Positions 5,081 through 42,439 of a stretch of DNA of 49,333 nucleotides are shown here, piece after piece. Within the stretch, counting starts at the first letter, position 1; every line of letters starts with the position of its first letter. The notes beneath the pieces were generated by a model that was given only the letters and a program-made list of their open reading frames with translations, was not told the origin of the DNA and did no database searches. The position numbers were made by a program, and so were the translations under genes. The DNA lies in assembly GCA_017617525.1 (NCBI GenBank), contig JAFZWA010000062.1, positions 1 through 49,333 of the forward strand, given 5' to 3'. Source of the stretch: Clostridiales bacterium (GTDB lineage: Bacteria; Bacillota; Clostridia; Saccharofermentanales; Saccharofermentanaceae).

Positions 5081-5641
5081 TCAGTTATTTTTCAAAGCAT
5101 TTCTCCATGTGGCCGGCTTAAACTCACCGAGGATCGGGAGAAGTCTCTGGTCAACATCGATCTTGAGGACGGAGTTGAAGTTGTTGGTCGCGATCATCTG
5201 GCCCGCGAAGCCTACAATAACGACGATCTCAACATCGTTGAAGAACTTTCTCAAGCGGTCGAAGATCTCATCGGATACGGATGTCGGATCCTTTACGATC
5301 GCCTGACCCAGATCGAAAAGCACCTGTTCCTTTTCATCATATACGAGGTTATGCGGATCAAGTCCCAGGCCCTTTACGTCACTGATGAAAAACAGCGAGC
5401 AGAGCTGGCAGGAGTTCGTTGTGGAGATCGCGTGTGCGTAAAGGACGGCGTCCTTTTCTCCGATGACTTCTACCAGGCGGTTCCAGGATGTGTACCAGCC
5501 CATGAAAGCGTCATAAGTAGCCGCGTCGTTAAGAAGACCCTTCTTCATGTTTGTGACGGCATTTCTGCCCGCCAGTTCGTCATAGCGCTCTTTCTCTGCG
5601 CCCTTTACTTCGTTTTGTTCTACCAATTTGATTCTAGCCAT
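5081..5641 (-). CDS. Carboxymuconolactone decarboxylase/AhpD-like protein
   Basis: 186 residues of the alpha-helical AhpD/CMD fold. The redox-type Cys pair CQLC is at residues 78-81. In AhpD peroxidases a His normally lies four residues after the second Cys; here that position is Phe (CQLCSLFF), so classical peroxidase activity is doubtful, although dithiol chemistry remains possible. It is the last gene after metQ and the iron alcohol dehydrogenase on the same strand, 84 bases behind the latter. The gap is an unstructured CA-rich leader holding one copy of the GTGCTTTT octamer. Confidence 0.85.
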   Translation of the reverse strand: MARIKLVEQNEVKGAEKERYDELAGRNAVTNMKKGLLNDAATYDAFMGWYTSWNRLVEVIGEKDAVLYAHAISTTNSCQLCSLFFISDVKGLGLDPHNLVYDEKEQVLFDLGQAIVKDPTSVSDEIFDRLRKFFNDVEIVVIVGFAGQMIATNNFNSVLKIDVDQRLLPILGEFKPATWRNALKNN

Positions 5642-7853: not shown

Positions 7854-7888
7854 AAAAAAACCGGGGGCTTTTTTCATTAAGCTCCCGG
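7854..7888 (-). terminator. Attenuator terminator of the metQ leader
   Basis: CCGGGAGCTT (7888-7879) pairs with AAGCCCCCGG (7870-7861) around an 8-base loop, followed by seven U. The 5' arm overlaps the sequence at 7891-7881 that can instead pair perfectly with 7984-7975 (CTCCCGGACA), so terminator and upstream pairing exclude each other. Confidence 0.85.
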
Positions 7889-7914
7889 ACAAGTGGCAAT
7901 CTTCAGTGAAGCGA

Positions 7915-8040
7915 TCAACATCGCTCCCCGTCTCGGCGCAAGGACACACTTCCTAACGCGCCGTCCACATAACATGTCCGGGAGTTAAGCATTCGACAAC
8001 ACATGCACATATCCATTTTTCTCGCTTCTGAAGTTTTCAT
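7915..8040 (-). CDS. Cys/Met-rich leader peptide upstream of metQ
   Basis: A 41-codon ORF with ATG at 8040 and AAAGGAGG 8 bases upstream. Residues 9-17 read MDMCMCCRM, with Cys at 12, 14, 15 and again at 41. The tandem Cys codons end 11 bases before the 5' arm of the competing stem (7984-7975). The stop codon falls in the loop of an inner hairpin (AGCGAT/ATCGCT). A second leader before mccB has the same length and the same MCCRM at residues 13-17. This is the arrangement of a translation-sensing attenuator. The peptide itself probably has no other role. Confidence 0.8.
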   Translation of the reverse strand: MKTSEARKMDMCMCCRMLNSRTCYVDGALGSVSLRRDGERC

Positions 8041-8071
8041 GTCTCGCGCCTCCTTTCGTTGCGATGTATGT

Positions 8072-8104
8072 ACTTTAACACTACTGACCTACTATGTCAA
8101 TAGG
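8072..8104 (-). promoter_or_regulatory. metQ leader promoter with overlapping inverted-repeat operator
   Basis: TTGACA (8100-8095), 17-base spacer, TAAAGT (8077-8072). The -35 box lies inside the dyad CCTATTGACATAGTAGG (8104-8088), which recurs exactly at the mccB promoter and in variant form at iscS. An Rrf2-type (CymR/IscR) repressor site is the likeliest reading, by analogy only. Confidence 0.8.
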
Positions 8105-12090: not shown

Positions 12091-12216
12091 TCAGTAACAT
12101 CGTCTTACATGAAGGCGCGAAGAAGAACGTTCCTGCGCCCCGGCCATAGACACCCGGGAGGAAAACATTCGACAACACATGACGCAATAACTTGTTTCGA
12201 ATACTTTCGTTCTCAT
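12091..12216 (-). CDS. Cys/Met-rich leader peptide upstream of mccB
   Basis: A 41-codon ORF with ATG at 12216 and AAGGA 9 bases upstream. Cys at residues 11, 14, 15 and 40, with MCCRM at 13-17 exactly as in the metQ leader. The rest of the peptide differs apart from an SR at 20-21 and a Cys near the end. Its TGA lies in the loop of a hairpin (GATGTTA with TAACATC), again as in the metQ leader. A ribosome waiting at the tandem Cys codons would leave the downstream arm CTCCCGGG free to block the terminator. Confidence 0.8.
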   Translation of the reverse strand: MRTKVFETSYCVMCCRMFSSRVSMAGAQERSSSRLHVRRCY

Positions 12217-42362: not shown

Positions 42363-42439
42363 TGGTGGGTAGTATTGGACTCGAACCAACGACCCCTTGC
42401 ATGTCAAGCAAGTACTCTAACCAGCTGAGCTAACCACCC
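42363..42439 (-). tRNA. tRNA-Val(GAC)
   Basis: The full cloverleaf reads on the minus strand: acceptor GGGTGGT/ACTACCC, D-arm GCTC..GAGT, anticodon arm CTTGC-TTGACAT-GCAAG with anticodon GAC, and T-arm GTTGG-TTCGAGT-CCAAT. CCA is encoded. Confidence 0.95.

Follow-up and report, generated by a model that had tools for sequence, protein, structure and literature searches.

A predicted ribosome-mediated attenuator with tandem cysteine codons in the leaders of clostridial sulfur genes

In attenuation of the trp and his type, a leader ORF containing codons for the product amino acid is combined with a terminator and a mutually exclusive antiterminator. Amino acid sensing in Bacillota is generally attributed to T-boxes, which bind tRNA directly and have no leader ORF. 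A Cys-specific T-box in clostridia lies at the ubiG operon, which includes mccB and mccA, and brings about premature termination in response to cysteine (PMC2940859). Leader peptides have been described in Firmicutes for histidine (PMC2965389) and for branched-chain amino acids (PMC5864092); at the Listeria Rli60 RNA, which precedes ilvD, mutation of the start codon or ribosome site lowered expression (PMC5864092). Described cysteine leaders include the leaderless polycysteine short ORFs of mycobacteria (Canestrari 2020) and actinobacterial cys leaders, in which the Cys codons lie near the stop and no conserved terminator hairpin is reported (PMC1262725). A predicted attenuator, uORFC-8-2, precedes cysS in Rhodobacterales, with tandem Cys codons usually at positions 14-15 and a U-run terminator (PMC8632094).

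We analyzed a window, the whole 49,333-nucleotide stretch of DNA from a Clostridiales bacterium, in which two leaders with tandem Cys codons precede metQ and mccB. A first-pass annotation of the sequence had proposed a cysteine attenuator of a kind not described in Clostridia. No Cys or Met leader attenuator from that class was found in the literature searched, which covers few subscription papers, and the word "cysteine" is absent from the accessible main text of two other motif surveys (PMC11109978, PMC6429828). As a kind, however, a Cys attenuator with an intrinsic terminator had already been predicted for the Rhodobacterales cysS leader (PMC8632094). At gathering score, Rfam returned only a tRNA (42366-42439) across the whole window, and its matches at the two leaders, to sok (15.9 bits against 59) and BTnc060 (17.7 against 229), are at chance level. 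Since this pair has no Rfam match and four leader peptides gave no credible Pfam or NCBIfam family, the rest of the 156 leaders described below have probably been missed by standard annotation too. There was likewise no T-box match in the window or at the two leaders. The same genome has nine T-box matches (L260 to L268), five of them over the cut-off; judged by the starts of the downstream ORFs, they lie before leuA-like, aminoacyl-tRNA synthetase-like, trp-like, and other genes, and no sulfur gene was recognized behind any of the nine.

The metQ and mccB leaders

All features of the metQ leader are on the minus strand, and the observation made in the first-pass annotation was confirmed. A promoter-like site, TTGACA-17-TAAAGT (8100-8072, with the -10 box TAAAGT at 8077-8072), is followed by the ribosome binding site AAAGGAGG (8056-8049) and, as had been claimed, by a 41-codon ORF, MKTSEARKMDMCMCCRMLNSRTCYVDGALGSVSLRRDGERC (8040-7915), whose frame is conserved in relatives and whose Cys codons are 12, 14, 15, 23, and 41. 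Cys14-Cys15 (TGT TGT, 8001-7996) are the putative sensor codons. Arm A, CTCCCGGACA (7984-7975), begins 11 bases past codon 15, covaries with arm B in relatives, and is the perfect complement of arm B, TGTCCGGGAG (7891-7882), the 11-base distance and the complementarity matching the original observation. The A:B helix is extended by GTGG (7968-7965) paired with CCAC (7896-7893), and an inner hairpin, GGCGC...GCGCC (7962-7935), is predicted between the arms. Arm B is either the partner of A or the 5' arm of a U-tailed terminator, CCGGGAGCTT...AAGCCCCCGG plus TTTTTTT (7888-7854; hairpin 7888-7861, T run 7860-7854). This double use of one strand was borne out by reading; the hairpin itself is absent from a simple terminator scan, in which the mccB hairpin is listed.

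The mccB leader, also on the minus strand, had been called a twin of the metQ leader, and it does share the layout. Its promoter (12355-12322) includes an identical copy (12355-12337) of the palindrome, described below, in the promoter of the metQ leader. The longest ORF has 47 codons (12234-12091), and the claimed equality of peptide length holds only from an internal ATG at 12216, which has the better ribosome site by eye and gives 41 codons; only when counted from there are Cys-Cys codons 14-15. The sensor codons (TGT TGT, 12177-12172) are followed by arm A, CTCCCGGG (12160-12153), which pairs with arm B, CCCGGGAG (12062-12055), extended by ATGGC (12147-12143) with GCCAT (12070-12066). Arm B overlaps the 5' arm of the terminator GGGAGCTTCCAAAGAAGCTCCC plus TTTTTT (12059-12032), found by both scan and fold, so this leader has its own mutually exclusive stems, as proposed. 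The stop codon, said to lie in an inner hairpin loop in both leaders, partly does so in the metQ fold, but the minimum-energy fold of the mccB leader differs, and that detail is therefore not general.

The genes in the window run in the order nifS/iscS type, nifU, mccB leader, mccB, cysK/mccA type, metN, metI, metQ leader, metQ, and Fe-ADH. The names are best matches; NCBIfam cut-offs are passed by metI, nifU, and nifS, and the rest pass Pfam cut-offs only. On the minus strand are the mccB type (cystathionine gamma-lyase type, 11917-10766), the cysK/mccA type (10764-9844), the metN type (9847-8840, below its NCBIfam cut-off), metI (8843-8190), and the presumed controlled gene of the metQ leader, a metQ-type lipoprotein gene (7750-6920) that is above the cut-off for the Pfam NlpA lipoprotein family and below those of the NCBIfam MetQ models. 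Fe-ADH (6886-5726, minus strand) follows metQ and is in turn followed by a protein weakly like YciW (5081-5641; 34 bits, cut-off 310). An Fe-ADH gene is also the first long ORF behind the leader at L021, L067, L068, L069, L158, and L167. Both proteins may belong to sulfur metabolism.

The 19-base palindrome ACCTATTGACATAGTAGGT (8105-8087, minus strand, at the metQ leader) overlaps the -35 box and is common to both leader promoters in the window. It is perhaps operator-like, a second, transcription-factor layer of sulfur control. Copies also lie before iscS (14007-13990, three mismatches) and before a third leader of the same genome (G000:C46:45163-45180, two mismatches); these two are suggestive only, because a reversed control gave three matches at up to three mismatches. 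The genome has one Rrf2-type regulator gene (C46:59190-59579).

Conservation of frame, codons, and arms in relatives

A search of 59 genomes, including the window's own, with the pattern ATGTGYTGYCGNATG yielded 27 matches, and the reversed control none; on reading, 17 were leaders and 10 were judged non-leaders. A third exact match in the window's genome, L003, and its relatives L015, L017, L020, and L022 were rejected as leaders, because they lack both the upstream start with ribosome site that leaders have and a leader-like 3' part. A covariance model made from the 17 leaders, all of the Cys-Cys kind and thus favoring the finding of such leaders, matched 84 of the 115 genomes of the window's family (E of ≤0.1; weak matches only, E of 0.01 to 0.09, in 3 of the 84), and 9 of the 23 genomes of the window's own genus had no match. 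An exact pattern scan of genomes yielded at least 119 stretches. Among the matches listed, most come from rumen or foregut metagenome bins (Saccharofermentans, Lachnospiraceae, Ruminococcaceae, Clostridiales), and some from non-bin records, such as Butyrivibrio proteoclasticus P6B7 and Lachnospiraceae bacterium AC2029.

A second covariance model, built from 69 leaders, matched 84 of 188 genomes of the order, all of them in the window's family except one weak candidate match in another family (G540, E of 0.006). It matched 19 of 391 Clostridia genomes (E of ≤0.01), 8 of them in the window's family, including its own; of the matches outside that family, seven were leaders by reading and four were not. 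By reading, Cys-type leaders occur in five further Clostridia families, in one of them mixed with Met. Across the phylum 5 of 398 genomes matched (E of ≤0.001), 3 of them outside class Clostridia, where all three leaders precede a gene with the N terminus of an OAH sulfhydrylase and one, L282, has a single Cys before CGA. Weak model matches in G160, G325, G392, and G508 were not leader-like on reading. The leaders are dense in part of the window's family and patchy outside it.

For counting, leaders were dereplicated at 80% identity, giving 74. The first reading took 80 of the at least 119 loci, and the later gene-context reading took all loci but L148 and L182. Two weak extra matches (L091 1171-1202 and L063 531-658) were removed before the counts, and L148 and L182, which have no leader, and L132, which is too short, were removed from the reading. 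A start codon preceded by a ribosome site opens the Cys frame in 71 of the 74 leaders, compared with 2 and 9 for the other frames. Among the matches listed, the sensor block and the CGATGT block are separated by a multiple of three bases at 118 of 121 pattern places, a count that includes the non-leader L148; the three exceptions are L182, also a non-leader, and L195 and L197, from frame-shifted lineages. In the covariance-model set, codon 14 is Cys in 66/66 distinct leaders and codon 15 in 61/66, flanked by Met13 (64/66) and Met17 (61/66). On these counts, the leader looks translated in one frame.

The conservation goes beyond the tandem Cys codons. All 17 seed leaders read TGT TGT CGA, though the pattern permitted TGC and any CGN, and codon 16, where it is Arg, is CGA in 61/61, while CGA makes up 11% of the Arg codons in 30 window genes. 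CGA-ATG follows the sensor in Cys and Met types alike and persists in leaders that have lost Cys15. Mid-ORF Cys codons divide into 66 TGT and 60 TGC. A second Cys block near the stop is common, with Cys among the last three codons encoded by TGT in 101 of 110 cases and Cys present after codon 17 in 119 of 122 distinct ORFs; both counts are biased, since exact-pattern leaders contain TGTTGTCGAATG plus CGATGT by construction. Simple codon sensing leaves CGA-ATG and the second Cys block unexplained. Slow codons or an RNA contact are possible reasons for the kept CGA-AUG and TGT. Pairing of UGUCGA in the sensor with UCGAUG at the ORF end was considered as the cause of their conservation and is unsupported, because L066, L078, and L084, which have no sensor CGA, keep the other half.

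Arms A and B were examined in a 69-row alignment, comprising 67 of the 74 dereplicated leaders and the two window leaders; L002 stands in for L034, its near twin, and L121, L122, L138, L165, L169, and L181 were left out for unusual length or spacing. Across A:B, 45 cells changed on both sides, compared with 15.9 in shuffles, none of 500 reaching 45, and slid controls were 24 to 47% paired against 85% for A:B. Each leader's own A:B pair was more stable than permuted pairs (mean of -26.5 versus -23.3 kcal/mol, z of -9.4, none of 5,000 permutations as good), and in 65 of the 74 the leader's own B was better than the mean of the other Bs; relatedness inflates both the shuffle and the permutation tests, and L165, whose B motif was mispicked, was counted in the pairing test anyway. 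Plain examples of covariation are TCCCGAGC with GCTCGGGA and CTCCCAGGC with GCCTGGGAG. The covariation, the family-wide conservation, and the fold z-scores (-4.4 for the metQ leader, -3.0 for a longer metQ stretch, and -3.4 for the mccB leader, which takes another shape when folded on its own) indicate that the leaders are more than chance. The first-pass annotation had suggested a search of related genomes for a Cys-Cys short ORF; there, the frame, the Cys codons, and the covarying stems are kept, mostly before the sulfur genes it named, and the pattern it had named as refuting, RNA kept with frame and Cys codons lost, was not found in the relatives.

In five LysR-class leaders, the arm core CCCGGG is retained but displaced by one base from its frame in the other leaders, while the Cys codons stay in frame, and thus the arm's RNA role is separable from the sensor's codon role. 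In L231 (G262), an in-frame stop falls at the start of arm A (ICCRMR-stop), with the arms intact and covaried; this layout would place a terminating ribosome on arm A.

A T-tailed hairpin was found by scan in 70 of the 74 leaders, and by reading, B is its 5' arm in 69; the hairpin of L175 is unconvincing, and L101, L131, L179, and L180 fail the U-tract rule. The ORF ends before the B motif in 74/74. The commonest distance from the last Cys codon to arm A is 11 bases (36/74; range, 4 to 15), and the leading edge of a ribosome stalled on that codon, judged by its footprint, would lie about where arm A begins. With the RNA through the sensor masked and the transcript cut just after B, A paired with B in 73/74 folds, and with a ribosome at the stop codon, B was in the terminator in 73/74, L165 being the sole miss. 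At equilibrium through the whole terminator with A free, A:B formed in 44/74 and the terminator in 29/74. With no ribosome and the transcript cut just after B, A paired with B in 62/73 and with upstream RNA in 1/73; at equilibrium through the terminator, A:B formed in 28/69 and the terminator in 41/69, both counts leaving out L165 and the second also the four leaders lacking a scanned terminator. Because the terminator often wins at equilibrium, the switch must be kinetic and timing matters. No upstream protector of arm A of the trp type was found in the leaders, and upstream:A pairing was weaker than in permuted pairs (z of +3.2). Without an upstream partner of A, an untranslated leader is expected to read through, if folding is kinetic.

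Genes behind Cys-type and Met-type leaders

There are 156 distinct leaders, 148 of which have a readable downstream ORF, classed by best match to exemplars; the rules for these ORFs sometimes begin upstream of the true gene start. The genes comprise 51 OAH sulfhydrylases, 39 like the window's metQ, 30 like its mccB, 6 Fe-ADH, 5 of a second OAH sulfhydrylase type, and 5 LysR regulators. There are two each of metN, a second cystathionine lyase type, a second MetQ type, and an ABC permease, and one each of a family 3 solute-binding protein, an SDF-family symporter, a GCS2 protein (L227, about 480 bases beyond the terminator), and an unassigned gene. At L183 (4875-6566), the gene behind the leader encodes a MetQ-type lipoprotein fused behind a family 3 solute-binding domain. 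Judged by these matches, the genes behind the leaders are mostly sulfur genes.

A different family, f71, gave 17 model matches in 301 genomes, 9 of which are leaders, the other 8 being rejected as not leader-like. All nine lie before genes with a MetN-like start. Exactly at the Cys-Cys place, at least two Met codons occur in six of the nine leaders and a single one in two; L286 has Met-Cys-Met there. Eight of the nine keep CGA-ATG after the sensor, and by the scoring used A and B are complementary in eight, the B motif of L296 having been mispicked. MetN was the only NCBIfam match (E of ≤1e-80) for the genes behind three of these nine leaders and behind L237, a leader of a further family with MMYMCMFRM before a metN-like gene; these matches score 323 to 375 bits against a cut-off of 500, which the window's own metN does not reach either. 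One RNA frame that carries mostly Cys where cysteine genes follow and mostly Met where this methionine transporter follows is good support for codon sensing, although the match of sensor to gene has exceptions, in that metQ and metN are found behind Cys-type leaders too. The change from Cys to Met, in a site conserved in other respects, amounts to a natural codon-swap experiment and makes the mechanism directly testable. That these leaders form a recodable attenuator platform for sulfur amino acids across part of Bacillota, with a Cys or Met sensor suiting the gene and a default reversed from that of trp, is a tentative proposal to which we give slightly less than an even chance; the reversal would follow from termination being allowed by ribosomes that cross arm A, with read-through of any leader left untranslated.

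The genus also has Cys leaders of another kind, which end in NYRFGRMCRCC-stop and precede an OAH sulfhydrylase gene; they lie at L010 (1588-1656 in G000:C46, the same genome) and L271 to L279. This kind was found in 9 of 115 family genomes with an exact pattern and, with a degenerate pattern, in the window's own genome only among 391 of the class. The 15 codons before MCRCC show 130 synonymous and 95 nonsynonymous pairwise differences. No terminator was seen by eye, and the downstream RNA is little kept. This kind looks more like a peptide- or Rho-dependent system.

Proposed mechanism, rival explanations, and known systems

The leaders combine a translatable ORF with a ribosome site before the gene, pathway amino acid codons at a conserved place (Met there in eight of nine leaders before metN-like genes), and a terminator and antiterminator computed to share one strand. 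We conclude that they are very probably ribosome-mediated transcription attenuators reading charged tRNA-Cys, a prediction made from sequence. When cysteine is plentiful, ribosomes would pass the Cys codons and cover arm A while the polymerase makes arm B; with A covered, B would close with the 3' arm as a terminator, and transcription would stop. When cysteine is low, a ribosome stalled at Cys14-Cys15 would have its leading edge at about the start of A and leave A free to pair with the emerging B, so that the terminator would fail and metQ, or mccB-cysK-metN-metI, would be made. Comparison of the sequences shows the ORF with its frame and Cys codons, the helix between A and B, the sharing of B with the terminator, and sulfur genes downstream; we infer the stalling, the read-through and its direction, and the default read-through of an untranslated leader, unlike in trp. 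Ribosome-mediated attenuation appears to govern the uptake of methionine and the making of cysteine in these Clostridia, which are mostly from the rumen and include Butyrivibrio and Lachnospiraceae strains with non-bin records.

The near invariance of Arg16-Met17, more than tandem Cys codons need, and the frequent Arg-Cys before the stop would also suit a nascent-peptide sensor, in which the peptide (MCCRM, or RC before the stop) arrests the ribosome, with free cysteine or a related metabolite, not empty tRNA-Cys, as the signal; the second leader type in the genus, which keeps NYRFGR before MCRCC at 9/9 loci with synonymous changes, points the same way. The uniform CGA at Arg16 and the uniform TGT TGT CGA of the seeds, however, mean that nucleotides or codons are kept and not residues alone; moreover, the residues before MCC are little conserved, and Met-Met replaces Cys-Cys before metN-like genes in six leaders, so we hold arrest by the peptide to be unlikely. 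Because AUG codons flank the Cys pair, all members might instead respond to methionine, alone or together with cysteine. Positions 13 and 17 are almost always Met, metQ leaders have further Met codons, and Met-type leaders exist, but by geometry a stall at Met17 would be predicted to cover arm A, and cysteine or its precursors are the products of many genes behind Cys-type leaders; a general methionine signal seems likewise unlikely.

Two further explanations do without sensing by a ribosome. A conserved long-range helix, an enclosed hairpin, and a terminator are what a ligand-binding riboswitch would show, with the short ORF overlapping it by accident. The coding signs, however, occur in one frame only, the Cys codons are kept as codons in the frame-shifted LysR class, few unpaired bases besides CGAATG and CGATG are conserved, and Rfam matches at both leaders are sub-threshold; we regard a riboswitch as very improbable. 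Hardly credible at all is a functional small protein, for example binding metal or thiols, in front of a plain terminator: the peptide is Cys-rich with conserved ends, but its length from Met13 to the stop varies from 19 to 34 codons, the four leader peptides tested have no Pfam family and one NCBIfam match scoring 12 bits where the cut-off is 200, and changes in arm A are matched by changes in the terminator arm.

The predicted ribosome-mediated attenuator can be set beside known systems. With trp/his and Listeria Rli60, it shares pathway codons in a leader ORF and mutually exclusive terminator and antiterminator; the likeness to trp and his drawn in the first-pass annotation thus holds for the ORF, the codons, and the shared-strand terminator, but not for an upstream protector pairing. 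In contrast to those systems, the ORF here runs through A and ends before B, and no protector of A was found; unlike Rli60, an untranslated leader here is predicted to read through. We class it as a new variant of ribosome-mediated attenuator, not a subtype of trp. The Cys T-box of clostridia is similar in having methionine-to-cysteine genes as targets. Mycobacterial and actinobacterial leaders likewise place runs of Cys codons in a short ORF upstream of cysteine genes, but the leaders here have a ribosome site, mid-ORF Cys codons, and a U-tailed terminator, and so differ from the leaderless mycobacterial polycysteine type, with its Cys run near the stop and no intrinsic terminator. By its published description, uORFC-8-2 resembles them in its tandem Cys codons, usually at 14-15, and its U-run terminator. 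It belongs to Proteobacteria, has one target gene, prefers UGC, and has the Cys codons inside the first stem, whereas the leaders described here belong to Bacillota, use UGU, have the arm after the codons, and precede several kinds of sulfur gene.
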